This document shows, one piece after another, positions 600-16,748 of a DNA stretch of 33,534 nt. Position 1 is the first letter of the stretch; every line of letters begins with the position of its first letter. Below the pieces are notes generated by a model, which saw only the letters and a list, made by a program, of their open reading frames with translations, did no database searches and was not told the DNA's origin. Source of the stretch: a virus; the IMG/VR virus record IMGVR_UViG_3300009024_000043, positions 1 through 33,534 of that record. One strand, 5' to 3'. A program made the position numbers and the translations under genes.

Positions 600-1370
600 A
601 TGGAACGAATTAAAGATTATAATGAGTACTTAAAAGAAGCACACCCAACTGAATACAAGGCCCCTAAAGGAAGCTCCAGGGATGCTAAATTAAATAAAGC
701 TAAGAAACTATTAAAGGGATCTGAAGCCGATAAGAAAAAAGCTTATAAACTTAGAGATGAGATGGAAGCTGAAGAGAGAACAAATGAAACAATAGACCCT
801 AAGGTGGATTTAAAAGAATTCGCTGAAAAAAGAGGAGACGGAGCAAAAAGCACAGTGGATAGCTCTAAAGAAAAAGGAGGCCTTTCAATGCTTTCATATG
901 ATCATTTTAAAGTTAAACTTCCATATTATAAAAAAGCAGCTAGTGGAAAATTTGATATGTCAGATTTTAAAGATGAATATGATGAATTATTGAACGAACT
1001 AATAGAAGCTACTTCTAAAGATATGAACATTACCCAAAAGAAATTTCAAGAAATAGTAGGTAAAATAGAAGTATTAGGAGAACTTTGTATAAGAAATAAA
1101 GACACTGAACCTATTAATGAAGCTAAAAAAGCAAAGAAAAAGAAAAAGACTTTAAGTAAAGCAACTGAAGCAAAAATAAGAAAAGTCGCAAATAAAAAAG
1201 GATATACCTTTGGTAGTTTAAGAGCAGAGTACATTAAGGGCCTTGGAGCATTTTACAGTTCTGGGTCAAGACCAGGCATGACTGCACATGGATGGGCAAT
1301 GGCTAGAGTAAATAAAGCAACACCTAGTAAACCATGGGCAAACGTTAAAAAAAGTAAATCTAAAAAGTGA
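600..1370 (+). CDS. Putative internal head protein with DUF5824-like C-terminus
   Basis: A 256-aa, very Lys-rich protein. Its N-terminus MERIKDYNEYLKEA aligns with the T4 capsid-targeting sequence MKTYQEFIAEA, with Glu13-Ala14 in the place of the gp21 protease cut (after L/I-x-E). A Lys/Glu-rich linker follows, then a helical segment (about 97-170), a run of lysines (about 175-187), and a C-terminal module (about 196-250) with the core GSRPGMTAHGWAMARVNKA. That core recalls the short DUF5824-type domain of phages and algal viruses; this match is from memory. It shares a GTGA overlap with the NUDIX gene downstream. I infer it is packaged in the head and matured by the prohead protease. Its biochemical role is unknown. 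Confidence 0.7.
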   Translation: MERIKDYNEYLKEAHPTEYKAPKGSSRDAKLNKAKKLLKGSEADKKKAYKLRDEMEAEERTNETIDPKVDLKEFAEKRGDGAKSTVDSSKEKGGLSMLSYDHFKVKLPYYKKAASGKFDMSDFKDEYDELLNELIEATSKDMNITQKKFQEIVGKIEVLGELCIRNKDTEPINEAKKAKKKKKTLSKATEAKIRKVANKKGYTFGSLRAEYIKGLGAFYSSGSRPGMTAHGWAMARVNKATPSKPWANVKKSKSKK

Positions 1371-1867
1371 AAACCTTCAAAAATTTAAAATCTATATTGA
1401 ACGAAGAATGGAAAGATGTCATTGATTCATTAGAAAAAAAGGTAGCGGGCGTGTGTATAATATATGAAAATAAAATATTATTAGTTCACCCAACAAACGC
1501 GAGCTGGCAAAAAAGAACGTTAGGCATACCTAAAGGAAAAGTAGAAACTGGAGAAGATGTTTTAACAGGAGCAATTAGAGAATTGAAAGAGGAAACTGGA
1601 ATATCACTGAATCCTTCTATTCTATCTAGATCTGAGCCATATGTATGTAACACCTATAATAAAAAAGGAGATATAGAAAAGCAACTTATTTATTTTTTAC
1701 ATGAAGTAACAAGTCTGTCTGAAATAGGAATGACGAGTTTAAGAATATCAAATGATAACTTACAAAAAGAAGAAATAGATTGGGCAGGTTTCTTAAGTGC
1801 AGATGAGGCCTATCCAAAAATAAGTAAGTGGCAGTTAATAGTTTTAGATCGTCACCTGAACAAATAA
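1367..1867 (+). CDS. NUDIX hydrolase with capsid-targeting-like N-terminus
   Basis: A 166-aa protein with a complete NUDIX box (Gx5Ex7REUxEExGU): Gly57, Glu63, Arg71-Glu72, Glu75-Glu76, Gly78, Ile79. All metal-binding glutamates are present, so it should hydrolyse a nucleoside diphosphate linked to another group. The substrate cannot be read from sequence; T4 NudE.1 acts on ADP-ribose and Ap(n)A. The start is GTG at 1367, overlapping the upstream TGA. Unusually, about 25 residues precede the fold, beginning MKTFKNLKSILNEE. This resembles the T4 capsid-targeting signal, with possible cleavage after Leu11-Asn-Glu13. If so, the enzyme would be packaged and injected rather than made after infection. 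Enzyme family is near certain; packaging is inference. Confidence 0.93.
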   Translation: MKTFKNLKSILNEEWKDVIDSLEKKVAGVCIIYENKILLVHPTNASWQKRTLGIPKGKVETGEDVLTGAIRELKEETGISLNPSILSRSEPYVCNTYNKKGDIEKQLIYFLHEVTSLSEIGMTSLRISNDNLQKEEIDWAGFLSADEAYPKISKWQLIVLDRHLNK

Positions 1868-1881
1868 ATAACTATAATATT

Positions 1882-3858
1882 ATGAAATCTTTTAAGGACA
1901 TATTAAACGAAGACTCAATTGAAGGAAAACCAGATCAAATGGCTGTTCCGTATGCAGATACTCTCGCACAAAATGTAAATGTAAGAGAAATACCGGCCGG
2001 ATCAAATAGAAGCCCTGAAATAGACAGATATTTTGATTTAGTAGGATTGAACAATAGAAAAAAAGGAAAGAATGGTTATCCATGGTGTGCTGCTTTTGTT
2101 TACGCAATGTTTGATGATTTTTGTAAAAAACTAGGATTAAAAAATCCAGTTATTAAAACAGCCGGTGTAATGAAACACTGGAATAAGGCAGATTCTTCTT
2201 TAAAAATACCCATTGCTAAGGCTAGAAATAACCCTGGTTTAGTAAAACCTGGACAGGTTTTTATTCAAAGCAGAGATGGCGGAGGTCATACTGGTATAGT
2301 AACCGCGGTGGACTCAAAAAATAAAACTTTTACCACAATAGAAGGAAATACAAACGATAAACTTTCAGGAGAAGGTCATCGTGTAGGTAGAAATACCAGA
2401 AAACTTTCACAGGGAAGTTTAATAGGTTTCATAGATTATTTTAAAGGACATAGAAGTGAAAAATTTGAAAAGACAATATCTACTGTTGTTGCAGATGCTC
2501 CTACTGATTATTCTAGTGAAGAATACATCGGAGGTCTTTCTAAAAACGATATTAAAAAGATACAATTAGTCTTAATAAAATTAAACTACGATTTAGGCAC
2601 CTTTGGACCTAATAAGGATGGAGTCGATGGTGAGATAGGTACTAAAACAACTGATGCAGTTAATGATTGGAAATTAAAAAATAACATGAAAGCTGATTCT
2701 ATCATAGACAAAGATTTATACACTTTAATGACTAAGGATAGTAAATTTAAAGATAAGTTAACATCAGGTGGAAATAGACAAATTGACATAGGATTAGATA
2801 ATTATACAAGCCCAGTGCAAAAAATGGTTAATAAACCTATCAAAGTGATAATGCCGGGTTTATTTCCAAATAAAATAATAACAGTTGATGCTACCAATGT
2901 TTCAAAGGATCCAGACCTCGTAATAAAACGAGCTATTATAGAGAATACAGGAACGGCTAGTAAATTTTCTGATTTGATTCTTGAAAGGAACATATTTAAG
3001 AGAATACGAGATGCTAAAAGAGCAAATGATACAAAATTAGCCGATTATTACAGAGATGGTAGAGTAAAAACCAGTCCAATAGATGGGACTGGACCATCTA
3101 ACACGGCTGATATCAAGAACATAGTTAGTTCTAAACCTGAAGTTGATATAATTTATAACAAAGAATTAAACGTTTTTTATCTAAAAGCCTTTAATTCAAG
3201 CGCAATAGAGGCTTTAGGAACAGCTGATATTATTAAAATGGAGCCTAAGGATTTTAAAGAATTACAAATCGCATTTAAAGATGCGGCACCTAATAAAACG
3301 CAGACACCTAGTCCTGAAGCAAATACACTAACTGCTAATGTAAATTCTACATTATCGAGCGTTAAGTCTATTCCAATGAACGATAGAGAAAAAACAATTA
3401 AAGGAGCGGCTATAGCCAATGCTTTAGTAAAAGACTTAAATGTTACTAAAGAAGTTGCAGCAGGTGTGGTTGGAAATTTATGGGCAGAAAGCGGACTAAT
3501 ACCGGATAGAATACAAGGATCCGGCGTAAAAAGAGGAACTCTTCCTCAAGCAAATAATGGAGGTTACGGATGGGCTCAATATACTCATCCTAGTTTAAAG
3601 ACTGACTTAATAGCGTTTGCTAAGAAAAAAGGAGTAGATCTAAATACCCAACCGATGACAGATGAATTAAATTATGAATATTTGAAACATTGGATATCTA
3701 AAAACAGCAGTAAATTCTCTACGCTAAAATCGCAATCTGATGTTAGAAACGCAACTAATTATTTTTTAACTAAATATGAAAGACCTGCTGATCAATCTGA
3801 AAGAGCCTTGGATAAAAGAGCAAATTTCGCAAACACTGTCTATTCAGAAATGGCTTAG
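1882..3858 (+). CDS. Three-domain peptidoglycan hydrolase (CHAP-like, PG-binding, Phage_lysozyme2-like)
   Basis: A 658-aa protein. The frame is open back to 1828, but the ATG at 1882, 14 bases after the NUDIX stop, yields MKSFKDILNE-D, which aligns without gaps to the T4 signal MKTYQEFIAE-A. Residues about 60-188 form a CHAP/NlpC-type domain with Cys69 (WCAAF), His136 (GGHTGIV) and Glu154/Asn156 (EGNTN) as likely catalytic residues. Residues about 218-285 look like a peptidoglycan-binding (PGB_1) repeat with the signature FGPNKDGVDGEIGTKT. Residues about 500-658 match the phage tail lysozyme family (Phage_lysozyme2), with Glu536 in NLWAESGL and GGYGWAQYT near 560-568. Two cleaving activities on one chain suggest a virion-borne wall-penetrating enzyme. 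A baseplate location or a lysis role remain alternatives. Confidence 0.88.
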   Translation: MKSFKDILNEDSIEGKPDQMAVPYADTLAQNVNVREIPAGSNRSPEIDRYFDLVGLNNRKKGKNGYPWCAAFVYAMFDDFCKKLGLKNPVIKTAGVMKHWNKADSSLKIPIAKARNNPGLVKPGQVFIQSRDGGGHTGIVTAVDSKNKTFTTIEGNTNDKLSGEGHRVGRNTRKLSQGSLIGFIDYFKGHRSEKFEKTISTVVADAPTDYSSEEYIGGLSKNDIKKIQLVLIKLNYDLGTFGPNKDGVDGEIGTKTTDAVNDWKLKNNMKADSIIDKDLYTLMTKDSKFKDKLTSGGNRQIDIGLDNYTSPVQKMVNKPIKVIMPGLFPNKIITVDATNVSKDPDLVIKRAIIENTGTASKFSDLILERNIFKRIRDAKRANDTKLADYYRDGRVKTSPIDGTGPSNTADIKNIVSSKPEVDIIYNKELNVFYLKAFNSSAIEALGTADIIKMEPKDFKELQIAFKDAAPNKTQTPSPEANTLTANVNSTLSSVKSIPMNDREKTIKGAAIANALVKDLNVTKEVAAGVVGNLWAESGLIPDRIQGSGVKRGTLPQANNGGYGWAQYTHPSLKTDLIAFAKKKGVDLNTQPMTDELNYEYLKHWISKNSSKFSTLKSQSDVRNATNYFLTKYERPADQSERALDKRANFANTVYSEMA

Positions 3859-3864
3859 TAAAGC

Positions 3865-5544
3865 TTATGTATGAAAAGGCTTAATGTACTTTAGTTTATT
3901 TGAATAAGAAATGCTTTCTAAAGCAGAAGAACCTGATCCTTGTATTCCCATTATTTCATTATACTTTTCATCTGATATTTGATGATTAGTGTATAATTCT
4001 TGAATTTCCCTTTCATTTTCTTCTTTAGCTCTAGCATATACATATGCAGGAAAACTAGGAAGACCCATTCGTTCAGCGTTGTAATTTAAATGTCTTTGTA
4101 AATCGTACACTAACTCGTCTTCTTTTAATTCAGTTTCAGGCCTATCCTTTAACTGTTGATCTATATAAGGTACGTCTATAACTGAACCTTTTCTTTTCCT
4201 TTCATTAGACGAATGTTCTTCCATTCTGTCATTTAGTTCTTGAGTAGATATGAGATCTTCTATGCCTTCTTTTTCGAAATCCGAGAGAGCATCAGCTGAA
4301 GATCCTAGTAATTTAATTATTTGTTTAGCTATGAAAGAACTGAATTTACCGAGAACAAGCCCTCTCATTATAACAACACCAGAATTCTTCTTTAGGAATT
4401 TTCTAGCCTGCCCTCCTCTTTTAGATATAAACGTGTAGTACGTAGCTAAATCATCTGAATTTTTTAGAACGGACTTCATTGGCCCATTTGGAAATTTTGC
4501 AGATATATTAGAAAACGTAGATAAATCTGCTATTGGTATTTCTTTAATTACCTTTCCTCCTTTTTTAATTATTAACTTATCTCCTTTTTTAACAACTTTT
4601 CCACCTGCTTGTAAAGTTTCTTCCATTAACTTAAAATTCTTAGCTGCCTTTTTAGAAATAGCTTGAGCTATAGGTTTATCTACTTCTTTAGCGAATACTA
4701 ATAAGTTGTCAGCTACGTTTTTTGCCATGTCAGCTATTTTAGTCAAAAACTTTCGTAAAGGTTTTCCGATAAAAGGAACCCAACCAACTGCTTTACCTAC
4801 AACGTCTTTCAATAGAAAAGAAATTACACCAGTTATAGAAGCTGCTATTTTGGCAGCTGATTTCTTGATAAATTCTAGAAACCTTTTACTTTTACTGAAT
4901 GTTTTTCCTTCCTGTTTCATTAAAACCTCAGCTGACTCTTTTGCTATTGTTTTACCAGCTCCTTTTGTTGCTATTTTTGAAAATGGTTTTGAAAAATTAT
5001 GAGCCACACCTTTAAAGCCTTTTGCAACGTCTCCTCCAAAAGGAATCATTGCAATCAAAGATATCAAACCTAATATGTACTTTCCTCTGAACATGTATAT
5101 GATACCGTTTATTAAATCGGCAGCCATCCCAAGAGGAATACCTACTACTAAAAAAGCATCTCCAACAATACCTATGAAATCTAAAACCAACTGAAGTATT
5201 CCAATAGGCGAACCTCCTTCTGTTAATGAACTTAATAGACTTTTCAACATGCCTAATATACCTCCATCCGGGGCCGGTAGGATACCTGCTCCATCTACTA
5301 CACTATCGATTGCCGAAGCATCGGAAGCAATAGCGGCTTCGGCCTGTTCATTTATAACTGCCACTTCTCTTCTAAGTAGAGGGCTTTGAAAAAATTCTTT
5401 TTCGGTTAAAGATCGTATATCAGGTATTAGATTATCGAAATCTAAAGCTTCTTCTAAAACATGCATTTTGTTTTTTAAAGCTTCTAAGATCATTAAACCT
5501 TCTTTAGATCTTAAATCATTTTCATATTGTATTGATAAATCCAT
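3865..5544 (-). CDS. Hydrophobic virion-type protein with pre-toxin-like core
   Basis: A 559-aa protein led by its own late-promoter-like element. After an acidic helical N-terminus (1-80), residues 113-178 are strongly hydrophobic and follow the pattern IPLGMAADLINGIIY...IPFGGDVAKG. This resembles the glycine/aspartate segment before the toxin domain in many polymorphic toxins (pre-toxin PT-TG type) and in some phage virion proteins. A second hydrophobic stretch lies near 232-268, followed by a Lys-rich region (about 285-345). The C-terminal 130 residues are charged and soluble, with no toxin domain that I recognise. It may be a membrane-inserting injected protein or an internal structural protein. 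It ends 6 bases from the convergent peptidoglycan hydrolase gene. Confidence 0.75.
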   Translation of the reverse strand: MDLSIQYENDLRSKEGLMILEALKNKMHVLEEALDFDNLIPDIRSLTEKEFFQSPLLRREVAVINEQAEAAIASDASAIDSVVDGAGILPAPDGGILGMLKSLLSSLTEGGSPIGILQLVLDFIGIVGDAFLVVGIPLGMAADLINGIIYMFRGKYILGLISLIAMIPFGGDVAKGFKGVAHNFSKPFSKIATKGAGKTIAKESAEVLMKQEGKTFSKSKRFLEFIKKSAAKIAASITGVISFLLKDVVGKAVGWVPFIGKPLRKFLTKIADMAKNVADNLLVFAKEVDKPIAQAISKKAAKNFKLMEETLQAGGKVVKKGDKLIIKKGGKVIKEIPIADLSTFSNISAKFPNGPMKSVLKNSDDLATYYTFISKRGGQARKFLKKNSGVVIMRGLVLGKFSSFIAKQIIKLLGSSADALSDFEKEGIEDLISTQELNDRMEEHSSNERKRKGSVIDVPYIDQQLKDRPETELKEDELVYDLQRHLNYNAERMGLPSFPAYVYARAKEENEREIQELYTNHQISDEKYNEIMGIQGSGSSALESISYSNKLKYIKPFHT

Positions 5545-5567
5545 TATTTATAGATGTTTCTTTTTTT

Positions 5568-5576
5568 TATATATCT
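5568..5576 (-). promoter_or_regulatory. Late-promoter-like element, AGATATATA
   Basis: AGATATATA followed by eight A residues; its first base is 32 bases before the start at 5544. A second TATAAATA string touches that start codon but leaves no room for a leader, so this upstream copy is the better candidate. Confidence 0.5.
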
Positions 5577-5605
5577 ACAAAATATAGCTTATGTTTACGT
5601 ACTAT

Positions 5606-5950
5606 TTAAAAGGGTAGGTCTGAGCCATCGCCTGTCATGTCAATAGGTTCTTTTACTTCCTCAGTATTTATCTTGACTGATATTGCTCTAACATCATTGA
5701 TATAAACTGTTTCGTTTTCAGGATTAACCCATTCCCTAGCTTTTACTTCATATGAAACATTTAAATTATCATTTATTTCAAATGAATCTATTTTAGAACA
5801 CCCTTCTTGAACCAAAGAGAATTTTAAATATTCATTGGCTCCAGAATATCCTTTAGATGAAAGTTCTATTACGAATTCTCTTTTTTTAAACTTATCTGTT
5901 ATTTGAATGGTGTCGTATTTCTTTACTAATTTTCCTAACTGAGTATTCAT
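5606..5950 (-). CDS. DUF3127 OB-fold protein with SSB-like DLPF tip
   Basis: A 114-aa protein matching the DUF3127 family (common in Bacteroidota). Diagnostic features are FKKREFVIELS near residue 22, a strand-rich middle, and KAREW near residue 70 followed by ...NDVRAISVKI. The family is predicted to adopt an OB fold. The last residues form an acidic tail ending GDGSDLPF, closely resembling the C-terminal tip by which bacterial SSB recruits repair and replication proteins. It lies 3 bases downstream of the glucosyltransferase gene and is surely co-transcribed with it. I infer a single-stranded DNA-binding or DNA-metabolism role; DNA binding itself is not shown. Confidence 0.85.
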   Translation of the reverse strand: MNTQLGKLVKKYDTIQITDKFKKREFVIELSSKGYSGANEYLKFSLVQEGCSKIDSFEINDNLNVSYEVKAREWVNPENETVYINDVRAISVKINTEEVKEPIDMTGDGSDLPF

Positions 5951-5953
5951 ATA

Positions 5954-7378
5954 TTATATGTTTTTTAATTGATTCATTAATGACTCATAGTCTGCACTAT
6001 CATTATCTGTTTTTCTAAGTTCGTCTTGTGTTGTCTCCTTTGGTTTTTCCTTTACTTCAGGTGTATCTTCTATTTCATCGAAAATACTCAATTGATTATC
6101 ATCTACTATTGCATTAGATGATGCTTGTGCACCTATCTTTCCGTTCTCAATAATTATATTTTCTAAATTTGTAATTATTTCATTTGTACATATATCGGCA
6201 TTTGAATGCTTTTTCCAATATGTAAATGCCATTTCTCTCCATTCGTCTCTCATTACTGGGTCATTTGACAATTTGACCATTAATTTTTTAGTTTCTTCAA
6301 AGTTAGTATGATCTAAACCAATAGTTCCGCTATGGGAATCCTTAGTCACAGGATTACCTGTTATTCTATGAATTACATTATCACAAAAGTGTTTATGAAA
6401 AATAGGAATGGTACCTGAAGCAACAACTTCGGCGTGACAGTTTTCTATATTATTACCATACATATGAGCCTTTAAGTGATATAGATCAGAACCAAAAGCA
6501 CTTTTAGCCATTCTTTCCATACAGTCTACGTTAGTGTAAGGTGGATACAAATAAGAACCTGATCCAGGAGTTTCTTTTCCATGTAAATCTTCTGTAAATT
6601 TTACCTCATTTAATTCTTTTCTAGGTCTAAAATGATTTACTATTTCATGATCTTTATAGAAAGGCTTTCCATTTTTATTATCTCCTTTTTCATATAAGAT
6701 ACCTGCCCATCCTATGCTTGCTTCTAATCCTTCAAGAATAGTTATGTAATTTTCTTCCATCAATTGTTGAGCATGGAAATCCATCATTAAATTAGGACCT
6801 TTCCAACCTGATAGTCTACCTATCCATCTAACTGTTTTATGATCCTGTTCGTCTATAGGCAACCAATATTTTTCACGATGATCATCATATGTAAAACCTA
6901 ACGCCATTTTCTTGAAAGGAGTATTTACATTCTCTCTTTTAGCCCATCTAGTAAAGTCTGATTCTAATGAATGAGTCATCAATACATCTACACTATTACA
7001 TATTTCATCAAATTTACCATTTCTACTTAGAGATTGCATTTTATGATCTAATTGAACAATAGCTTTGGGTAAAGTAATACCTTGTACAAGCTTAACAAAG
7101 TTGATTTGACAATCTTCTGGATGCTTTTTAGAAGGAACAGAATAGACAAGAACCATATCAAAGTTTTCATTTACTTCATCCAAAACTCTGGTCATTTCTT
7201 CAGATTTTCCACAAGTAAACTCATCTTTATCAAAGACCATAGTGTCTCTACGAGCCCATTTCTTATCTAAAGTTGCAAATATTTTAGTATTAGGTGTTGC
7301 TTTTTGAAATTCTACAGCACATCTTGTTACGCCACAGCCTTCTACTCCTCTGCCTAATATTATAGCTATCTTTTTCAT
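5954..7378 (-). CDS. agt: DNA alpha-glucosyltransferase, T4 Agt homologue
   Basis: A 474-aa GT-B glycosyltransferase resembling T4 alpha-glucosyltransferase along its length. The N-terminus ILGRGVEGCGVTR parallels T4 MARGLEGCGVTK. RWIGRLSGWKG (185-194) parallels RWIGRTTTWKG, EGLEAS (216-221) parallels EGLERS, and MERMAKSAFG (287-296) and ASGTIPIF (320-327) match LERMSKSGFG and ACGTIPVF. The T4 enzyme transfers glucose from UDP-glucose to 5-hydroxymethylcytosine in DNA. T4 Agt is about 400 aa; this one has an acidic tail of roughly 60 residues after position 415 containing Gln429-Leu-Ser-Ile-Phe433, a near-perfect bacterial clamp-binding motif. Comparisons are from memory of the T4 sequence. 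The acceptor base is not shown here, as no hydroxymethylase gene is in the window. Confidence 0.92.
   Translation of the reverse strand: MKKIAIILGRGVEGCGVTRCAVEFQKATPNTKIFATLDKKWARRDTMVFDKDEFTCGKSEEMTRVLDEVNENFDMVLVYSVPSKKHPEDCQINFVKLVQGITLPKAIVQLDHKMQSLSRNGKFDEICNSVDVLMTHSLESDFTRWAKRENVNTPFKKMALGFTYDDHREKYWLPIDEQDHKTVRWIGRLSGWKGPNLMMDFHAQQLMEENYITILEGLEASIGWAGILYEKGDNKNGKPFYKDHEIVNHFRPRKELNEVKFTEDLHGKETPGSGSYLYPPYTNVDCMERMAKSAFGSDLYHLKAHMYGNNIENCHAEVVASGTIPIFHKHFCDNVIHRITGNPVTKDSHSGTIGLDHTNFEETKKLMVKLSNDPVMRDEWREMAFTYWKKHSNADICTNEIITNLENIIIENGKIGAQASSNAIVDDNQLSIFDEIEDTPEVKEKPKETTQDELRKTDNDSADYESLMNQLKNI
6080..6094 (-). other. Codons for a clamp-binding-like motif, QLSIF
   Basis: These five codons encode Gln-Leu-Ser-Ile-Phe in the disordered C-terminal tail of the glucosyltransferase. 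The bacterial beta-clamp consensus is QL(S/D)LF. T4 Agt is reported to interact with the gp45 clamp, so a clamp contact here is plausible. Confidence 0.6.
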
Positions 7379-7406
7379 ATTTTATTTTTAAATTTTTGTT
7401 TTGTAT

Positions 7407-7691
7407 TTAATCTTTTCTTTCATTCATATAGTTTTCTAACCCCTGTATGTAAGATATAGCATCTAATAAGTTATCTTTTTTATGGTTATAAGACTCTCTT
7501 GAAAACTTTAAAGCTATCATTGCTATAAACATTTCTTTACCTGATATGTTTAAACCAGACATTCCGTTGAATATACTAGCTGCTCTATCCATACCTTCGC
7601 TAAAGGGTCCATACATTCTTTCTTTTTCCTCATCTCTTTCATTTACTATAGAGTGAGCTTCTTGAGAAATAGATTTTTTATTTTTATTCAT
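7407..7691 (-). CDS. DUF6378-like phage protein
   Basis: A 94-aa protein matching the pattern of a small family (DUF6378) frequent in phages: an N-terminal helix with ERMYGPFSEGMDRAASIF, then MFIAMIALKFSRESYNHKKDNLLDAISY. Function is unknown; the His/Asp/Lys-rich RESYNHKKDNLLD segment is the most conserved-looking part. An upstream ATG at 7712 in the same frame would add seven residues. I prefer 7691 because it overlaps the stop of the 43-aa gene (ATGAATAA), a typical coupled start. It lies 28 bases before agt in the same transcription unit. Confidence 0.8.
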   Translation of the reverse strand: MNKNKKSISQEAHSIVNERDEEKERMYGPFSEGMDRAASIFNGMSGLNISGKEMFIAMIALKFSRESYNHKKDNLLDAISYIQGLENYMNERKD

Positions 7692-7815
7692 GATTAGACT
7701 TTTTAAATTCATTTGGATATTTGTTTTTAAGGTATTTTATCCAGTGTTTTTGTTTTCTTCCATTTACAAAAAACCAGCCTACTTTTAAATCCATCCATTT
7801 TATTATACTGCGCAT
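7684..7815 (-). CDS. Small 43-aa protein upstream of the DUF6378 gene
   Basis: A short frame encoding a basic, aromatic-rich protein with the core MDLKVGWFFVNGRKQKHW followed by IKYLKNKYPNEF. Codon use and composition look protein-like, and its TAA overlaps the start of the next gene by 8 bases. It begins 36 bases after the first base of a GTATAATAT element and just downstream of a terminator, so it would be first in the DNA-metabolism unit. An internal Met8 is an alternative start. Function unknown; the size and charge suit a nucleic-acid-binding or host-takeover peptide, but this is inference. Confidence 0.65.
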   Translation of the reverse strand: MRSIIKWMDLKVGWFFVNGRKQKHWIKYLKNKYPNEFKKSNHE

Positions 7816-7842
7816 TGCGGTTAAGTTTAAGATTATTCTAAT

Positions 7843-7851
7843 ATATTATAC
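7843..7851 (-). promoter_or_regulatory. Host-type promoter element, GTATAATAT
   Basis: GTATAATAT contains a TATAAT -10 hexamer, immediately after the terminator at 7853-7890 and 36 bases before the 43-aa gene. The same 9-mer precedes three other genes in the window. I see no convincing -35 box. It probably starts the 43-aa, DUF6378, agt and DUF3127 unit. Confidence 0.45.
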
Positions 7852-7852
7852 T

Positions 7853-7890: not shown

Positions 7891-7913
7891 TTTAAAATTT
7901 AAAAATATATTTA

Positions 7914-8189
7914 TTATTTGGCTTTACCTAGAAAAGATTTCTTTTTAATCTTCTTTTTAAGTTTAGTATTAATTCTTTTCTTTTTAAGTTGTTTGATTTC
8001 TGATATATCGTCTGCTTTATATGACTTAGATATTCCATTTATCATTATTTGATACTCGTTGATAGCGGTGTTTATACCTATTATAGTTCCTATTTTTTCC
8101 TTAATAGAAACCCGCTGACCTATTTTATAGGAGCGGGTATTCTTATAATTTCCATCAAAGCTTTCGCGTATTAAGCTATTTCTTTTTTT
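7914..8189 (-). CDS. KOW-like basic domain, probably a -1 frameshift extension of the upstream gene
   Basis: This 91-codon open frame has no ATG, GTG or TTG before its core; its only ATG is near codon 49. It encodes YKIGQRVSIKEKIGTIIGIN, a KOW/SH3-like strand pattern, then a Lys-rich tail ending KKKSFLGKAK. It lies in the -1 frame relative to the 525-aa gene upstream, and the two frames overlap at a run of nine A residues. A -1 slip there would give a continuous protein ending ...DLKKKRNSLIRES and so on. Possible explanations are programmed frameshifting, a homopolymer sequencing error or mutation, or initiation at a rare codon. The frame is certainly protein-like. How it is expressed is unresolved. 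Confidence 0.65.
   Translation of the reverse strand, partial: KKRNSLIRESFDGNYKNTRSYKIGQRVSIKEKIGTIIGINTAINEYQIMINGISKSYKADDISEIKQLKKKRINTKLKKKIKKKSFLGKAK
8110..8138 (-). other. Strong 12-bp stem-loop inside the KOW-like frame
   Basis: On the minus strand ACCCGCT pairs with AGCGGGT and CCTAT with ATAGG, with a 3-base AAA loop and a 2-base TC bulge. It is unusually GC-rich for this genome and begins 44 bases after the nine-A run. Confidence 0.6.
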
Positions 8190-9748
8190 TTAAGATCTTT
8201 TTCTACAAATTCCTCTCTTAACGAGTTTATTTTAATTTCTAATTGTTCTTTAATATCTTCTAGTTGGCTGAAAAACTTGGAGTCTATATCTCCTGATTCT
8301 AAGTTTGTATTTATTTTAGTTACTTCATTTTCTAACTTAGTGATATTTGTTTCTATTTCAGACTTTCTTGAATCTAGAGCGGCAATAGATGCAGTTTGTT
8401 CATCAATCTTAACTTGAAAAATAGAGCTAATATCATAATTAAAGTTTTCTAAAATATAATTATGTAATTTGTATTCGTTTATATCATTCTTCCAAACTCT
8501 TTCTACTTGATTCAACATTTCACAGATATGATAATCTCCTTCTAATTCTATTACCATTACTTTTTTTCCGGTATGGTCATTTGTTAAAGTTTTCGCAAAT
8601 TCTAAATTAAAAATACTAGATGTTTCATTTAAAACTTTACTAACGTCTGTTTTAACAGTGTTGCTTTCTAAAGTAAGTATTTCACTAAAATTAAATTTAG
8701 AAGGCTCTTTAATTAAACTTTCATTTATGTATATATCTAATTTTCCAAATTCATCTGATCTAAACTCTAATACTAGATTCCTAAGGGATGTTGATTTAAT
8801 ACCATGTTGAGATTTAACAAATCCTAATTTATAAAAAGATTCACATAGCGTGTAATACGAGTTATATTTTTCTTTAACATAATTAGAATCCATTTCATAC
8901 AATTTGGAAGATTCAGATTCAGATAATAAAGATCCTTTATTCAAGTCCTTAGTACTAATTGCTATAAACTTGTTATCTATAAAACTTAATACTGTATTCT
9001 TACCGGTTTTTAAAGTAGGAGTGATTGTATTATCAATAGTACATGTAGCTCCGCCTTGTCCTAAAGTAAAAGAAGAAGAATTTCTAGACTCAACTACTGA
9101 TAATCTAGTATAAAGATTCTTAAGAATAGGCAATTCTCCATTTAATCTATGTTTAATAGCCTCGCTTGAATAAGATTCTGAAATTAACATTTTACTAAGG
9201 CCTTCTATATCTTTTTCATAGCCTTTAGCGCTTTTCATTGAATTTATAGAATCTAATACCATTAATTTTTCAGTATTATTATTGATGTAGTTTAATATCC
9301 TATCAACTGACTCTTTAACTACACTGTCGTAATTAAATTCTTTAAATGAATCTACAAATTTTCCATATAACACAAATTCAGGATTATTACGTAATGATTC
9401 TTCTAAAACTATTACTCTTTGGAGAACTACTGGATTAGAATAAGAATTGCTTTCTTTGATGTTATTTAATTCAGATAAAAGATTAGCTTCTTTATTCATC
9501 TCGTCTATTAAATTACTATCTGAATATTCAAATTTTTCAAACTGTTCTAGTATATTTATTATAGTTTCATTTTGTAAATGGTTGTTTAGTTCAACCAATC
9601 CACTTTTTAGTGAGTTATATGTCGAAGATACACCAGTATTTGCTTTCAAAGCATTTTTAGTGGATTCAGTTAGTATTTTTACTAATGAATTATTAGAAAC
9701 GTCACTATTAGATAACGTGTCAAGTGTTTTATTTATAAAAGTCTTCAT
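8171..9748 (-). CDS. Late structural-type protein, 525 aa, with C-terminal coiled coil
   Basis: I do not recognise a family. The N-terminal two thirds are mixed helix and strand, with a central part (about 225-345) that looks beta-rich. Residues 447-520 form a clear heptad-like coiled coil (IAALDSRKSEIETNITKLEN and onward). The gene is led by a textbook late-promoter-like element, followed by the KOW-like frame and a terminator, so it forms its own transcription unit. The coding end is DLKKKEIA, with KKK encoded by nine A residues. If the ribosome slips -1 there, about 90 basic residues replace the last few. N-terminal MKTFINKTL begins like the capsid-targeted proteins but lacks the expected Glu; an I-L-T-E-S site at 25-29 is possible. 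Confidence 0.8.
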   Translation of the reverse strand: MKTFINKTLDTLSNSDVSNNSLVKILTESTKNALKANTGVSSTYNSLKSGLVELNNHLQNETIINILEQFEKFEYSDSNLIDEMNKEANLLSELNNIKESNSYSNPVVLQRVIVLEESLRNNPEFVLYGKFVDSFKEFNYDSVVKESVDRILNYINNNTEKLMVLDSINSMKSAKGYEKDIEGLSKMLISESYSSEAIKHRLNGELPILKNLYTRLSVVESRNSSSFTLGQGGATCTIDNTITPTLKTGKNTVLSFIDNKFIAISTKDLNKGSLLSESESSKLYEMDSNYVKEKYNSYYTLCESFYKLGFVKSQHGIKSTSLRNLVLEFRSDEFGKLDIYINESLIKEPSKFNFSEILTLESNTVKTDVSKVLNETSSIFNLEFAKTLTNDHTGKKVMVIELEGDYHICEMLNQVERVWKNDINEYKLHNYILENFNYDISSIFQVKIDEQTASIAALDSRKSEIETNITKLENEVTKINTNLESGDIDSKFFSQLEDIKEQLEIKINSLREEFVEKDLKKKEIA

Positions 9749-9770
9749 CTATTAGATAATTATTTTTTTT

Positions 9771-9779
9771 TATTTATCT
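9771..9779 (-). promoter_or_regulatory. Late-promoter-like element, AGATAAATA
   Basis: Exact consensus followed by a run of A residues; its first base lies 31 bases before the start at 9748. It would drive the 525-aa gene and the KOW-like frame. Confidence 0.6.
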
Positions 9780-9818
9780 TAAAATATGTATTTAAATTCT
9801 ACAATTTTAGAGTATTAG

Positions 9819-11810: not shown

Positions 11811-11827
11811 TTAATGTTTAATGTTTT

Positions 11828-12667
11828 TTACCATTGCAAAAATTTAGGAGAATAATTTAAGCCCAATCCGAAGTATGGTGAAGTAGATATATTATTACCA
11901 CTTACACTTATGCCATACCCAACTTGAAAGCCTAGACTCCAATTTTTTCTAAGTTCTCTTAATGCTTTTTTATTCTTAGGATTATCCAATATGCTAGCTC
12001 CTTCTATTTGAGTAAAACTAACTCCTGGGTAATCTGTATCTACTAGTATATTTATCTTTTTAGTTTCTCTATCTTTAACTAGTGCTAAATCTAAATTCAT
12101 AGCTAATTCTAAAGAAAAATTACCCATACCTGGAATAACTTTAGGAATAGTATCAGTGGTGTCTACTGTAAATGGAATAATACCTGATAATATTCTGTAA
12201 TTATTTTTACTATGATTCAAACTATCTAAAAAGGATAATTTATTTCCAGAACTATCAGCTATTACTAATACAGGTACTTGTGTTAAAATTTCTTTAACTA
12301 CATATTCTGTTTTAATAATTACCTTTGGCAGTTTATTTTTTTCAATTGTTAATTTTCCTAGTAAACTATTATATTCTGTCTTAAGTTCACTTATTGTCAA
12401 TTCATAACCCTGTTTTTCAGACCTCATTGTTTTATTATCTAAGGCATAAGTTTTTATAGAATCATTAGACGCTTCATAATTGTTCTTTACCCTGACAACT
12501 TGCTCTTTAACTTTCTTTGTTTCTATTTTTGCCTCGCTGGTTTTACCACATTGTCTAAATAATAATAGTATTAATATAACTATTGACCCCAACAACAACA
12601 TTCTTGTATTTTTAGGATCGGTTATGAATTTTATTACACTACCTAATATGTTCATTATATTTATCAT
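11828..12667 (-). CDS. Membrane-anchored coiled-coil protein, DUF6808-like
   Basis: A 279-aa protein with one N-terminal membrane segment (about 23-38) followed at once by Cys40, then a coiled coil (about 45-120), a middle segment (about 120-230) and a C-terminal strand-rich end (GFQVGYGISVSG...YFGLGLNYSP) resembling an outer-membrane beta signature. This arrangement recalls DUF6808-type proteins of Bacteroidota phages, though I cannot verify the match. Anchoring in the inner membrane with a long periplasmic part ending in an outer-membrane-like tail would suit a spanin-like lysis role. Its start overlaps the previous gene's stop by 4 bases (ATGA). Confidence 0.72.
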   Translation of the reverse strand: MINIMNILGSVIKFITDPKNTRMLLLGSIVILILLLFRQCGKTSEAKIETKKVKEQVVRVKNNYEASNDSIKTYALDNKTMRSEKQGYELTISELKTEYNSLLGKLTIEKNKLPKVIIKTEYVVKEILTQVPVLVIADSSGNKLSFLDSLNHSKNNYRILSGIIPFTVDTTDTIPKVIPGMGNFSLELAMNLDLALVKDRETKKINILVDTDYPGVSFTQIEGASILDNPKNKKALRELRKNWSLGFQVGYGISVSGNNISTSPYFGLGLNYSPKFLQW

Positions 12668-12879
12668 ATATAATCTGTTATATTTAGTTTTTCTCCAGTT
12701 TCTTGCTCTATATTATTTATTATTTGTTTTTCTCTTTCTCGAATTGAATCTAATTTATTTTTCAAATCATTATGTATAGACATCTGTTGGACTATTTGTT
12801 TTTCAAGAACATTTAAACCATGATGAACTTCTGAGTATTCTTTTAATAATGTGCTTAATTCTATTTTTAAATCTTTCAT
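12664..12879 (-). CDS. Small coiled-coil protein, 71 aa
   Basis: An almost entirely helical, charged protein with heptad-like leucine/isoleucine spacing (IELSTLLKEYSEVHHGLNVL and onward). It has no membrane segment. It lies 1 base after the 577-aa gene's stop and overlaps the next gene by ATGA, so the three are translationally coupled. It could pair with the coiled coil of the membrane protein encoded next. Function unknown. Confidence 0.72.
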   Translation of the reverse strand: MKDLKIELSTLLKEYSEVHHGLNVLEKQIVQQMSIHNDLKNKLDSIREREKQIINNIEQETGEKLNITDYI

Positions 12880-12880
12880 T

Positions 12881-14614
12881 TTAATTTTTAATTTTAACCT
12901 CTAAGGGTCCCATTAGTAATATTTCAATGTTTTTAAGTCTTTTTTCTAATGCAGCAGTATCGTTATTTACACTTACGCTGCCTTGTTTTTCATTTTTAGA
13001 ACCGCTTTGTGAAACAGGAGATTCGCTTGAACTAGAAGAAGAAATATCGCCTGAATAAGAAGATTCTGGCATATTGTTTTCTTGAGAAGTAGTTGTTGCT
13101 TCCATAGTAGAAGAAAAATCATCTGATATGTTTTTTCCAACAGAATCTATATCCTTTTTTGTTATAGGATCAGGTTTTATTAAAGAAGATTTTTCAAAAG
13201 AACTAAAGTTAGAACTAGTCTGTAAGTCATTAGTCACATTTTTAACTTTATCTAAGCCTTTAGACAGGCCTGAGGGTACACCAGGTATATCATTTATTTG
13301 ACTTATATTAGTTACATTAAGATCAGTACTAACGTCCCCTAGAGCATCTCCAAGTTGTGTATTGGCTTGATTACTAATATCTCCAGTATTATTGACATTA
13401 TTTATAGTAGATTCTTGCGAACTGTTTGTTAAAGTGTTAAGTTCATCTGTACTTAAACCCGTCATGCTACTTAAAAAGCTTGTTATAAAACTATCACCTT
13501 GGCTTTTTTTACCACCGCTATTGGCAACACCTTTAGAACCAGCTACCTGGTTATTTATAGAATTGTTGTTTTCAGTAGATGTATTATCGTTAACACTTTC
13601 ACTCGTGTTAGTTATATTATTTACTACACTAGCTGATTGGTTATCTTGAATATCATTTTCACTAGAAGACTCTTCATCTAAAATATCCTGATTAGATTCA
13701 ATAGAAATAGTGTCTTCGGTAACATTAGGTTTTTCTATTTCATCTTTACTTTCGCTAACTGTGTTTACAGTTGATGTTGCTGTTGTTTCTTCTTCCGGTT
13801 CAGCCGGTTCTTCTTCAACTTCTTTATTTATTGAAAGAGAAGCTAACGGATCTTTTTCTGGAATTTCTAAAGCATTTGATGTTTCTACTTCTATTTCAGA
13901 AAAGTCTTCATCCTGTTCGATGGGCTCAGCTAACTCAGAAGATTCTTCTTCTTGGGTTTTATCCTCAGTTTCTTTATTTATGGGAGAAGTTTCTTCTGAA
14001 TCATCGCTTTCAGATGATTCGGCATCTTCTGAAACCTTGCCGTCTACCATCTCTTTTAAAACCGCAAACGTAATGGGATTAGTTTTAAGCCCGCTAGGCC
14101 CATCTACTTCAACAGCGGCATACTCTATTAACTCATCATATGTGTCCTGATCTTCAAAAGCTTTTATAGCACCTGCACCTAAGCTAGATGCTTTAGAAAG
14201 TCTACTCATTAGTGCCATATAAAGTTCACCTAAATACTCTTCAGGATCTCTAACATATAAATCAGCTTCTGCATATTCTAAATATTCCTCTGCTACTTTT
14301 AACCTGCTAGGTGCCCTATCTATCTTATTAAATGCTTTAAGTTGCTTTGAATCATCTACAGATTCAAGCATACTAGAATAAGTCATTATATCAGCTTGAG
14401 AAAAGATTGGACCTTCGCCATTTTCTGGAAAAAGTCTTTCGAAGTCTTCTAGAAAACCAAGAGTTTTGAGCTCTTCTAAAAGAGGAGGTCTCAGCGCATT
14501 AAATGATTCAAGTTGGCCCTGTCTTTTTTCAAGGTTTTTAGCTGCTTTATCCAGTGATAATTGCGCCTTTTCCTTGTATAAAGAGATAAATGAGTTTAAA
14601 TATTCGGAAGCCAT
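12881..14614 (-). CDS. Large mostly disordered acidic protein, 577 aa
   Basis: Residues 1-190 form a helical domain (starting ASEYLNSFISLYKEKAQLSL). The rest is low-complexity: about 193-320 is rich in Glu, Asp and Ser, about 320-560 in Ser, Asn, Thr and Gln. A short helix closes the protein (about 555-577, ALEKRLKNIEILLMGPLEVK). This looks like two folded ends joined by a long flexible tether, with no enzymatic motif. It leads the unit carrying the coiled-coil, membrane and 663-aa genes, directly after the baseplate hub pair. A tail or assembly-scaffold role is possible, but I cannot assign one. Confidence 0.78.
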   Translation of the reverse strand: MASEYLNSFISLYKEKAQLSLDKAAKNLEKRQGQLESFNALRPPLLEELKTLGFLEDFERLFPENGEGPIFSQADIMTYSSMLESVDDSKQLKAFNKIDRAPSRLKVAEEYLEYAEADLYVRDPEEYLGELYMALMSRLSKASSLGAGAIKAFEDQDTYDELIEYAAVEVDGPSGLKTNPITFAVLKEMVDGKVSEDAESSESDDSEETSPINKETEDKTQEEESSELAEPIEQDEDFSEIEVETSNALEIPEKDPLASLSINKEVEEEPAEPEEETTATSTVNTVSESKDEIEKPNVTEDTISIESNQDILDEESSSENDIQDNQSASVVNNITNTSESVNDNTSTENNNSINNQVAGSKGVANSGGKKSQGDSFITSFLSSMTGLSTDELNTLTNSSQESTINNVNNTGDISNQANTQLGDALGDVSTDLNVTNISQINDIPGVPSGLSKGLDKVKNVTNDLQTSSNFSSFEKSSLIKPDPITKKDIDSVGKNISDDFSSTMEATTTSQENNMPESSYSGDISSSSSSESPVSQSGSKNEKQGSVSVNNDTAALEKRLKNIEILLMGPLEVKIKN

Positions 14615-14634
14615 TGCACTACGCGTGTTTTTAT

Positions 14635-14643
14635 TATTTATCT
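14635..14643 (-). promoter_or_regulatory. Late-promoter-like element, AGATAAATA
   Basis: Exact consensus overlapping the end of the 67-aa gene; its first base lies 29 bases before the start at 14614. Placing a promoter over the stop codon of the upstream gene fits a compact phage genome. Confidence 0.55.
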
Positions 14644-14841
14644 ACCTTGTTTTAGATTATCGGGTATTCCAAGTTTAGTAGGTTTACTATTGTCAAAATG
14701 TATAGTATCAGTAGCTTTGGCATTTTCTTCGTTTTTCTTTATAATTTTTCTTTTTATAGAAGCGACTAGCATAGAATATTCTAAAAAGTCTAATTCATAA
14801 AGGGTATCAAAGCTTTGGTTAAGCTTCACCGCTAATTCCAT
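14638..14841 (-). CDS. Small helical protein next to the hub gene, 67 aa
   Basis: The frame is open back to 14952, but the upstream part would overlap the hub gene by about 100 bases and encodes an unlikely Phe/Leu-rich stretch. The ATG at 14841, 7 bases after the hub stop, gives MELAVKLNQSFDTLYELDFL, a neat acidic helix followed by KRKIIKK and a short polar tail. In T4 the gene after 26 is 51 (baseplate hub assembly). Position is the only link to gp51, since T4 gp51 is longer and I see no sequence match. Confidence 0.68.
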   Translation of the reverse strand: MELAVKLNQSFDTLYELDFLEYSMLVASIKRKIIKKNEENAKATDTIHFDNSKPTKLGIPDNLKQGR

Positions 14842-14848
14842 GTTTATA

Positions 14849-15850
14849 TCAAATAAGATCTCTAAGTCTAGTTGAAACAATGAAAATATCTTTTGCAGTG
14901 AAGCTTCCTCCCAAAAAAATTGAAGAAGCCATTTTAGTACTACATTTTTCACAAATTCCTAAGACTTTATTCTTTGAATTTTTTTCAAGCATTTCGCATG
15001 CTTTATGTAAAAAAATAAATTTATTTTCATGCCATCTAGAAGCTTGACTTCTTAAGTCTATAAGGTCGTTTGCTCCAAATTCTCTCCAATTAGGTACAAG
15101 GTACGGGGCTATTTTATTAAATGCTTTATCCTCACCTATACCTCTTCTTTTACAGAGAGCATTGTAATCATTCATTATTTTAGTAGTTCCAATAGTTGGA
15201 AGATATATTTTAAATGTTTCCATTAATTTTTCAGAAGCAATTACAAAACATTTTTCTTCTTGAGAGTACCATTCCATTAACTCTTCTGGAAAATCAAACC
15301 CTTTAAGGTTAGTGTCGCTTACTGGAACATGATTAACATGACCACACTTTTTATTTGAACATTTAATATTTGCTTTTAAAGTGTTTTCGTTATTTGGAAA
15401 AGTCAACCTGTGTATTTTAAATAATATTTGATATTTATCAATCTCTAATATGTCATTAGAGTTTAAATTTTTAATTACACCTTTTACGTTTAATCTACAA
15501 CAAGAGTCTGTTATAAATGCTATTTTATCGGAAACATCTATTGGATCATATTCATCTATAGTAGACCAATGACGTATTTCTTTTGTTTTGGCTGATTTTA
15601 TTAAAATTTCAATATTATCGTCGTATAATAAACCGTTAGAAGGTAGCGTATTAAGAGCCACTAATTTCCAACCAGATTCATTAGCCATTGTATCCACGGT
15701 TTTTGAAGTAGAAGCTTTTCCTAAACTAGTTTTCTTCTTAGGTTCTTCTGTTTGTTCTTCTGTTTGTTCTTCAGATTTATCATATTCTATTTCACTATTA
15801 GATTCAATGTGATTTAACGCATCTTTAAATGCTTCATCTTGATTGTTCAT
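14849..15850 (-). CDS. Baseplate hub protein, T4 gp26-like, with four-Cys zinc site
   Basis: A 333-aa protein. Residues 1-58 are acidic and disordered, with a repeat EEQTEEQTEEP. From residue 61, ALNTLPSNGLLYDDNIEILI and the following KEIRHW...YDPIDVSDKI...CCRLNVKG fit the pattern of the T4 gp26 family, in which a short LPS-x-G-x-Y motif precedes a strand-rich domain. Cys164, Cys169, Cys300 and Cys303 form a C-x4-C plus C-x2-C set, likely a zinc-ribbon. T4 gp26 is 208 aa, so the N-terminal extension and C-terminal part are additional. Two promoter-like elements lie upstream, and the 67-aa gene follows directly. Assignment is by motif memory, moderately sure. Confidence 0.72.
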   Translation of the reverse strand: MNNQDEAFKDALNHIESNSEIEYDKSEEQTEEQTEEPKKKTSLGKASTSKTVDTMANESGWKLVALNTLPSNGLLYDDNIEILIKSAKTKEIRHWSTIDEYDPIDVSDKIAFITDSCCRLNVKGVIKNLNSNDILEIDKYQILFKIHRLTFPNNENTLKANIKCSNKKCGHVNHVPVSDTNLKGFDFPEELMEWYSQEEKCFVIASEKLMETFKIYLPTIGTTKIMNDYNALCKRRGIGEDKAFNKIAPYLVPNWREFGANDLIDLRSQASRWHENKFIFLHKACEMLEKNSKNKVLGICEKCSTKMASSIFLGGSFTAKDIFIVSTRLRDLI

Positions 15851-15864
15851 ATTTAAGCGTTTTT

Positions 15865-15873
15865 TTATTATCT
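15865..15873 (-). promoter_or_regulatory. Late-promoter-like element variant, AGATAATAA
   Basis: A shortened version of the consensus followed by T-free A-rich sequence, with its first base 23 bases before the start at 15850. It shares the region with a GTATAATAT element on the same strand, so the hub gene may be transcribed in two phases. Confidence 0.4.
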
Positions 15874-15879
15874 ATAAAG

Positions 15880-15888
15880 ATATTATAC
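15880..15888 (-). promoter_or_regulatory. Host-type promoter element, GTATAATAT
   Basis: Same 9-mer as before the sigma-factor operon and the agt unit; its first base is 38 bases before the hub gene start. No clear -35 box. Confidence 0.35.
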
Positions 15889-15915
15889 AAAAATGATTAG
15901 GTAAAGTTTTTGCTA

Positions 15916-15924
15916 AGATATATA
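15916..15924 (+). promoter_or_regulatory. Late-promoter-like element, AGATATATA
   Basis: Divergent from the hub-gene promoter; its first base is 23 bases before the start at 15939. It gives the lone plus-strand gene its own late-type start. Confidence 0.5.
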
Positions 15925-15938
15925 AACATATACATTAC

Positions 15939-16748
15939 ATGAAATATATTAGAAAAATATTTGAAGAAAGTAAACCGCTTTCTAATGCTTGGAAAACAAA
16001 TTGTATTAAGTTTTTAAAAAGAGGAGATACAGTAGATTCAGGAGAATTATCTAAGATGGGTAAAAGAGATGTTATATTGAAACATTTTCCAATGGCAGAT
16101 CCTAATTTTAGTAACTTTAAACCATCCGATGTTGGTAGATATTTACAAAACAATCCTGGGCTAATGGAATCTGTTAAAAACAATACTAATATATTATTAA
16201 GTAAAAAAACTCCTAAAACTGTTGTTAGTAATAGACATAGTAAGAAAGTAAACGTGGCAGGCTTCGACGCTGGTTATCTAAATATAGATTATAAAGCTAT
16301 TTTAACAAAGGCTAAGCTTTTATCCTTTGGAGAAAAAAACGTAAAAGGAGAAGCTAATTTTAAAATTTCATGTTCTATACCGGACGGTGTATTCGATGGA
16401 GCATCATTAAGTATTAATGTAAATGCTAAATTTGTAGCAAACTATACTATTTCCTTGAATGATAAAGAAGCAGTGATTAATATAGTTCCAAAATCTATCG
16501 TTCTAAATAGCCCTTCTTATAAAATAGGAGCAAGAGTCAGAATACAAATAGTTAATAATAAGGTAAAGATTCATTGGGGAACCTATATGAACAACCCTTT
16601 AGGAAGCAGTGTCATCTATACTATAAAACCCTTAAGTGAATTGAAAAAAGTGGCAGGTTCGGATATAAGTTTTGTAATCCCTAGAGAATCGTTAAGAATA
16701 TCAACAGTTCCTTTAAACGCTGATCAAATTAAAAAAGTAATAGGCTAA
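15939..16748 (+). CDS. Unknown protein with capsid-targeting-like N-terminus, 269 aa
   Basis: A basic protein, the only plus-strand gene between two long minus-strand blocks. Its N-terminus MKYIRKIFEE-S aligns position by position with the T4 capsid-targeting signal MKTYQEFIAE-A. Residues about 12-75 are helical. From about 100 on, the sequence is strand-rich (for example ANFKISCSIPDGVFDGASLS and KIGARVRIQIVNNKVKIHWG), suggesting a beta-sandwich or barrel. No catalytic motif is visible. Its own late-type promoter fits a virion product, and I infer a packaged internal protein. The stop codon overlaps the stop of the convergent gene. Confidence 0.75.
   Translation: MKYIRKIFEESKPLSNAWKTNCIKFLKRGDTVDSGELSKMGKRDVILKHFPMADPNFSNFKPSDVGRYLQNNPGLMESVKNNTNILLSKKTPKTVVSNRHSKKVNVAGFDAGYLNIDYKAILTKAKLLSFGEKNVKGEANFKISCSIPDGVFDGASLSINVNAKFVANYTISLNDKEAVINIVPKSIVLNSPSYKIGARVRIQIVNNKVKIHWGTYMNNPLGSSVIYTIKPLSELKKVAGSDISFVIPRESLRISTVPLNADQIKKVIG

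Follow-up and report, generated by a model that had tools for sequence, protein, structure and literature searches.

In bacteriophage T4, the internal proteins IPI, IPII and IPIII and the protein Alt are processed by the prohead protease gp21 and carry an N-terminal signal of about 10 residues, which reads K-T-Y-Q-E-F-I-A-E-A in the T4 record. According to the accessible part of a review, residues 4 and 7 of the IPIII signal serve targeting and residues 8 and 10 serve processing, and gp21 cleaves after L/I-x-E (PMC9026906). The internal proteins are injected, and in the available text of another account they protect glucosylated DNA from type IV restriction (PMC12373910). Here we examine a viral DNA of 33,534 bases (IMG/VR record IMGVR_UViG_3300009024_000043; "the window" below means this whole stretch), a fragment of a marine T4-like myovirus in which three consecutive genes on one strand, starting at 600, 1367 and 1882, begin with sequences similar to the T4 signal at positions 4, 7, 8 and 10. 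We estimate a probability of roughly 0.8 that, as the sequences suggest, the three products are head cargo bearing an N-terminal capsid-targeting sequence (tag) of 10 to 13 residues of the T4 internal-protein kind. As with the T4 internal proteins, the cut is predicted after L/I-x-E, and unrelated bodies share only the tag.

Two other systems are comparable. The ejection proteins of SPN3US and phiKZ likewise belong to phages with large heads and a gp21-like protease, and are cut after a short x-x-E (PMC5694885, available in part). In that account, however, cleavage affects eight of the roughly 50 head proteins of SPN3US and takes place at A-x-E; most propeptides with a stated length are long (from 111 to at least 161 residues, one having 20), and the accessible text describes no short tag on dozens of genes. 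The N-terminal 30 residues of phage P1 DarB suffice to bring a reporter into the capsid, but the available part of that work shows a single cargo. As far as the open literature goes, the kind of protein considered here is known from the T4 internal proteins, and what is new is how many and which kinds of cargo there are, together with the scaffold array described below. We found no report of genome-wide tags or of a tag-like scaffold array in the open literature, most subscription journals lying outside this coverage, and the accessible parts of two articles on probably related Bacteroidetes phages name the prohead protease and do not mention tags (PMC9723584, PMC12619734). Further literature cited in this analysis was likewise available in part (PMC9024508, PMC7411985, PMC3012670, PMC7824862, PMC2993671).

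The first of the three genes (600-1370, plus strand) encodes 256 residues with a Lys-rich C-terminal DUF5824 domain, and begins with the tag MERIKDYNEYLKE/A at 600-638 (the slash marks the predicted cut). The second (1367-1867, plus strand) encodes a NUDIX hydrolase (PF00293, 51.1 bits against a Pfam cut-off of 21.1) whose Nudix box, GKVETGEDVLTGAIRELKEETGI, can be read in the translated sequence; its tag, MKTFKNLKSILNE/E, lies at 1367-1405. The GTG start of this gene overlaps the stop of its neighbour in the sequence GTGA at 1367-1370, and support for that start comes from two relatives, G003 and G005, which also have a four-base overlap and a non-ATG start. The third gene (1882-3858, plus strand) encodes a 658-residue peptidoglycan hydrolase with Pfam matches to CHAP (42.8 bits, cut-off 26), Phage_lysozyme2 (84.5 bits, cut-off 28.2) and PG_binding_1, and carries the tag MKSFKDILNE/D at 1882-1911. 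The automatic open reading frame (ORF) call began this gene at GTG 1828; we place the start at ATG 1882 because the orthologues in G003 and G005 begin MRSF or MKSF. A sequence-only reading had proposed that these three neighbours and a fourth protein, encoded at 15939-16748, share capsid-targeting-like N-termini, two of them aligning with T4 at equal length. All four N-termini are present in the window, the three genes are indeed adjacent, and the equal-length match holds for 1882 and 15939; the resemblance to a targeting signal stood up to scoring for the three neighbours and not for 15939.

The window lies at offset 91,717 within a near-identical record, G001 (IMGVR_UViG_3300024346_000014, 125,649 bases); 30,532 of the 33,534 bases are identical in an ungapped comparison, and three proteins are 100% identical. 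Three shorter records, G003 (105 kb), G004 (43 kb) and G005 (21 kb), are also related to it. Genes were called in these four records and in G010, G011, G012, G013 and G016 by a simple longest-ORF method, the first ATG being preferred if more than 60% of the frame was kept. Expectation-maximisation on the 812 N-termini of G010, G012 and G013 was begun from two tag-shaped starts and one uniform start; likelihood was highest from the uniform start, which yielded the motif K-x-[FIL]-K-[QD]-F-L-N-E. Refinement on G010-G013 and G016, with G001, G003, G004 and G005 held out, gave a matrix of approximately KxFxQFLNES, and the score exceeded by 1% of internal 21-residue windows was taken as the threshold. 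Strict regular expressions alone had undercounted, and the matrix was used instead.

In the held-out records, 34 of 363 N-termini exceeded the threshold as against 43 of 3328 internal windows, an enrichment of about sevenfold (Fisher p 2e-15). The counts were 7/44 in G004, 4/30 in G005, 4/104 in G003 and 19/185 in G001, where 12 of 1297 internal windows passed; a genome-wide search of this kind had been suggested in the sequence-only reading. The training records gave 22/211 in G010, 13/155 in G011, 41/311 in G012, 42/306 in G013 and 17/159 in G016. T4, in contrast to G010, G012 and G013, has three internal proteins, and its relatives at least 10 in the available part of one source (PMC12373910). 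Over all nine records, five of which are the training records, 95 of 1505 N-termini score at least 12 (1.1 expected) and 53 score at least 16 (0.1 expected). The core [LIV][FWY]E alone was mildly enriched over shuffled N-termini (13 against 5.0 in G001) and was not enriched over shuffles in T4 or the immuto phage. A second unsupervised motif, which proved to be a mixture, had moderate support in held-out data (8/185 N-termini of G001 against 12/1297 internal windows) and was set aside.

In AT-rich genomes, where Lys, Asn, Phe and Ile are frequent, shared N-termini could also arise from codon or composition bias behind the start codon, without being a signal. The N-termini are in fact Lys-rich, and a motif learned from G001 alone was weak and drifting. 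Shuffling, which keeps composition, nevertheless leaves few matches (means of 0.7 to 3.7 per record; 2.4 against 19 real ones in G001, 3.7 against 41 in G012 and 3.2 against 42 in G013), and the motif has a fixed spacing and a Glu and resembles the T4 signal. Nor is there clear enrichment, at scores of at least 8, in the array-less phages PTm1 (recorded host Tenacibaculum; 4/291 against 1.7) or Lak-A1 (recorded host Prevotella, code 15; 2/162 against 1.1). We regard composition bias as a very improbable explanation.

When the 33 listed window N-termini were ranked with a matrix trained on other phages only, the three genes took the first three places: 1882 with 16.1, 600 with 12.7 and 1367 with 10.5, against a threshold of 6.75 and a next-best score of 5.2. 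Positions 8-10 fit an L/I-x-E processing site, reading LKE, LNE and LNE in 600, 1367 and 1882, respectively. At T4 positions 4 and 7, gene 600 has Tyr and Tyr, 1882 has Phe and Ile, and 1367 has Leu and Ile; the NUDIX orthologues in G010 and G012 have Phe at both. The NUDIX tag is above threshold in five of the six records that have the protein, with changing letters (MLRFKDFLNE in G010, MKIKAFSEFLAE in G012). Four of the six members of the hydrolase family are tagged, relatives reading MRSFREILSE, MKSFREILNE and MKLIKDFNQFITE, and the close orthologues of gene 600 begin IKSYTEYLKE, IKNYSNYLKE and ITSFDNFLNE. The AlphaFold model of the gene 600 product is helical (pLDDT 63), and no PDB match to it was better than E 2.5. 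At about residues 170-183 this protein has a second [LI]NE/AKK site ahead of the Lys-rich DUF5824 part, found in five of five aligned orthologues, and cleavage there could release the basic domain.

T4 itself served as a control. With the matrix from other phages, seven of 250 T4 ORFs pass against 2.0 in shuffles; IPIII and IPII rank first and second (17.9), Soc third and IPI fourth (9.5). The most informative matrix columns correspond to T4 positions 7, 4 and 10 (2.76, 2.14 and 1.43 bits); position 8 carries 1.14 bits, yet is L, I or V in 75%. In T4 gp23, FGSFLTE/A ends at residue 65, and the accessible part of one paper gives the gp23 propeptide as 65 residues long (PMC5694885). The capsid-targeting reading of 600, 1367 and 1882 is strongly supported by these comparisons, since the T4 internal proteins stand out under a motif trained on other phages, the top columns of this motif match the T4 mutational map, and relatives have a gp21-type protease whose scaffold part repeats the tag.

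The prohead protease gene, which the sequence-only reading had linked to the motif, was found in the relatives and not in the window or G001. G004 encodes a 662-residue protein with PF03420; scans with this protein and with the G004 capsid protein gave 24 and 72 loci. PF03420 is present in 11 of 11 records tested, five fetched by the protease itself and six by the capsid protein, in frames of 662 to 676 residues. His 84, Ser 139 and Ser 140 are invariant in an alignment of 18 protease sequences. A protease profile matched only 5jbl (T4 gp21, E 4e-5) among the PDB sequences, and the top three Foldseek matches are 5jbl as well (E about 4e-7). By family match, fold and invariant His and Ser, the relatives' protein is an S77 prohead protease of the T4 gp21 type.

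Unlike its T4 counterpart, this protease forms one polypeptide with a scaffold-like rod in which the tag recurs. About ten copies of the unit (I)NYSEYLAE, which resembles the T4 capsid-targeting sequence, are arrayed at 14-residue spacing through the middle of the protein. The consensus I-N-Y-S-E-Y-L-A-E-K was derived from 59 copies in six records, spaced by 14 residues, or by 28 where a copy misses the search pattern, which itself demands Y/F/H twice and E. In the AlphaFold model of the fusion, pLDDT rises above 70 only in the protease domain and in some segments of the C-terminal third; the repeats are modelled as long helices at low confidence. All 23 capsid proteins that were aligned, out of 72 loci, share [VLI][FN]E at the same position, which we infer to be their cleavage site. 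Tenacibaculum phage PTm1 also has a gp21-type protease with a long C-terminal extension, but differs from the array-bearing relatives in having neither a Y-x-x-Y array nor clear tag enrichment; its protease-scaffold protein (L239 4019-5788) contains a different, ELSEGIEKWIK-like repeat. The immuto phage protease starts PFKGLLTE/S.

Array and many tagged N-termini occur together in G004, G010, G011, G012, G013 and G016. Slices of 160-200 kb from four huge phages were also examined. Both features are present, at tag scores of at least 8, in LR745206 (23/191, 0.8 expected) and LR756504 (14/185, 1.6 expected), and LR756500 has a degenerate array (four strict copies in a 14-residue register) with 16 tags on 207 N-termini against 1.0. 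All three are uncultured; phage records matching the protease number 843, of which 30 were listed. The phages examined that lack the array have few tags or none: T4 has the 7/250 given above, and cyanophage S-SM2 has 4/227 against 0.3, three of them strong (scores 17.0, 16.4 and 14.4). The KxFxQFLNES-type dialect is not clear in the immuto phage (5/217 against 2.0 in shuffles), which also lacks the array. Other N-termini recur there (L079: 10010, 10596, 11522, 20904, 25347 and 26348), namely MKKSQLRxIIKE and NFDLKKFLVENKLT, and are possibly another tag dialect.

The tagged proteins are diverse. At scores of at least 8 they number 159 in 98 families (8.9 expected by background), and 62 families with unrelated bodies have a member scoring at least 12. 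Sixty of these 62 were annotated, two being left out whose genes cross piece borders. When aligned, the 60 family representatives have a mean column identity of 6%, and only a short N-terminal element is common to them. Chance and whole-gene duplication were rejected as sources of the shared N-termini, given the shuffles and the unrelated families. Pfam domains among the representatives include NUDIX, CHAP, Phage_lysozyme, RNA_ligase, a TnsA-like endonuclease N-domain, nucleotidyltransferase, DUF5824, a cytidylyltransferase-like domain and others, each in one or two members; at least 42 of the 60 have no Pfam match at E 0.001. The best reading of these sequences is that a T4-like capsid-targeting system has expanded to dozens of cargo families, which, unlike the T4 set, would include NUDIX and wall-hydrolase enzymes. 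One tagged protein of 183 residues in G012 (196983-197534; L202 16983-17534, plus strand) matched both 2'-5' RNA ligase (2H phosphoesterase) and Acb1 (anti-CBASS) weakly, below the Pfam cut-off, and an Acb1 function is not claimed. A 1383-residue protein in G001 (26626-30777; L062 6626-10777, minus strand) that starts MKYLLKLNEYVQE and has no Pfam match is a possible large cargo.

The tag might instead be a protease site or docking signal for another structure or for activation, as in loading of the wall hydrolase onto the tail or baseplate, and the Phage_lysozyme2 (tail lysozyme) domain of the hydrolase would suit such a role. The tag is, however, also found on the NUDIX protein and many unrelated proteins, and it matches both the head-core scaffold repeat and the T4 signal; we know of no tail lysozyme that needs such a tag. 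Such a role in place of head cargo is in our judgement unlikely.

A different alternative is that the tagged proteins act mainly as assembly or core factors in the prohead and are afterwards broken down or lost, so that little of them would reach the host. Window gene 8171-9748 (minus strand), which encodes 525 residues without a family match, is relevant here as a candidate second prohead-core or internal protein. It has many predicted cut sites: nine of the form [LIV]xE[SA], against 1.9 in shuffles, none of 1000 of which reached nine. The first of them, LVKILTE/S at residue 28, is kept in five of five aligned orthologues. When proteins of at least 200 residues in nine records were ranked by site count, the top seven were protease fusions and members of this family (from G010, G001 and G003); the G013 member has seven sites and the G012 member only five. 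Its product may be a core protein that is cut to pieces like T4 gp22 or gp67, which are core proteins cut into fragments in the accessible part of one account (PMC9026906). The NUDIX and wall hydrolases, on the other hand, have no internal [LIV]xE[SA] site, the background predicting only about 1.7 in the 658-residue hydrolase, and both retain recognisable enzyme domains. A mainly structural and transient role for the tagged proteins seems improbable to us.

Several observations weigh against the capsid-targeting reading. The NUDIX and hydrolase tags of the window phage have Leu or Ile where T4 has an aromatic residue, and a scan of six T4 head proteins showed the complete aromatic pattern in gp23 but in none of the gp20-region core proteins gp67, gp68, gp21, gp22 and gp24. 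Conservation within families is incomplete: the G013 NUDIX orthologue is under the threshold; one hydrolase relative in G012 is tagged only after an inner Met and one in G013 scores 3.1; and in the wider DUF5824 family of gene 600 four of eight members are tagged, the other four, from G010, G012 and G013, being untagged. Enrichment in G003 is weak (1.5 matches in shuffles against the four observed, none of which scores 12 or more). Some motif matches, such as those in a DNA ligase and head-closure proteins, are probably the native N-termini of ordinary genes, and the wall hydrolase might alternatively serve the tail or lysis. Since the phages that bear the array are related to one another, array and tags do not co-occur as independent events, and their association may be due partly to descent. 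Finally, the window, G001 and G003 yielded neither a prohead protease gene nor a capsid gene, and PF03420 searches of the three gave no match (one of these searches lacked a ringing control). All three are fragments without a head module, and the gp21-family protease is present in relatives. From the missing module in G001 and G003 and the synteny with G010, we place the head module of the window phage, probably, in a gap between the sampled pieces; among loci L081-L176, overlaps with G001 or G003 reach about 72-76% identity at best, none being of high identity.

The fourth gene proposed to be tagged (15939-16748, plus strand; 269 residues) begins MKYIRKIFEE/S. Its matrix score of -1.9 is far from the threshold, and with leave-one-out motifs from G001 it was not significant, 258 or 92 of 1297 internal windows scoring as high. 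It is a single plus-strand gene among minus-strand genes, is missing at the corresponding place of G003, has no match in PHROGs or Pfam, and has two relatives only in the viral collection, both 100% identical. A looser KxIxxLFE class, written post hoc from 15939, covers the gene and is overrepresented at the N-termini of other genomes (11/311 in G012 against 0.1 expected, and 5/306 in G013 against 0.3); strict and looser classes together cover 22 of 185 N-termini in G001, with seven adjacent pairs against 2.5 expected. A role for 15939 as tagged cargo is unproven from its sequence, and there is a slightly better than even chance that it is an accessory gene with an N-terminus that is tag-like by accident.

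Upstream of the three tagged genes, gene 35-595 (plus strand) contains an internal tag-like stretch, GFNDFIKVNE, after an inner Met at residue 90. Its counterpart in G003 is split, and the C-terminal half is a separate gene with the tag-like start MKLLNFKNFVLNE. Elsewhere the window encodes a single-stranded DNA-binding protein (SSB; 5606-5950), a sigma factor (20849-21514), a gp17-type terminase (21920-23884) and a gp6-type baseplate wedge protein (24860-26521). A protein with a Lamin tail domain (17242-18225, minus strand) adjoins a shorter gene (18241-18678) whose product is similar in its C-terminal part, and a tail-fibre-like gene with collagen-like GxxGxx repeats (33200-33532) matches gene 30062-32527 at its N-terminus. 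A T4-type DNA alpha-glucosyltransferase (5954-7378, minus strand) suggests that the phage DNA contains glucosylated hydroxymethylcytosine. Because this enzyme is encoded, anti-restriction proteins are plausible among the cargo of the window phage, by analogy with T4.

From these sequences we infer that tagged proteins are incorporated into the virion through docking, cleavage, packaging and injection. The two hydrophobic or aromatic residues of the tag, at T4 positions 4 and 7, would join the prohead core with its rod-like scaffold, which is fused to the protease and built of about ten 14-residue repeats. As tag and repeat present the same Y-x-x-Y-[LIV]-x-E face, cargo would dock by resembling a scaffold repeat. 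Cleavage by the gp21-type protease would then follow [LIV]-x-E in the tags as well as in the scaffold and the major capsid protein, and would free the mature cargo, around which the DNA would be packaged. On infection the DUF5824 protein, the NUDIX hydrolase and the wall hydrolase would exit with the DNA, opening the wall and acting at once on nucleotides, DNA or defences. We give about even odds to the broader proposal that a lineage of large phages made the T4 trick a general delivery system, in which the 14-residue repeat is both dock and cleavage site and a one-repeat copy at the N-terminus makes a protein injected cargo, supplying tens of pre-made enzymes. Array-bearing relatives reach 636 kb, and the hosts of the lineage are suspected to be Bacteroidetes. 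Candidate enzymes, with a similarly balanced chance, are the NUDIX, wall hydrolase, RNA ligase-like, 2H phosphoesterase-like and endonuclease-like proteins.

If this is correct, a ten-residue motif would by itself predict from sequence which products, among those of hundreds of unknown genes of large phages, are injected at the first moment of infection, the stage at which T4 IPI-III and other anti-defence proteins act. A testable mechanism for recognition of the capsid-targeting sequence by the prohead core would be that the tag imitates a scaffold repeat, and a delivery system based on the heads of large phages might follow.

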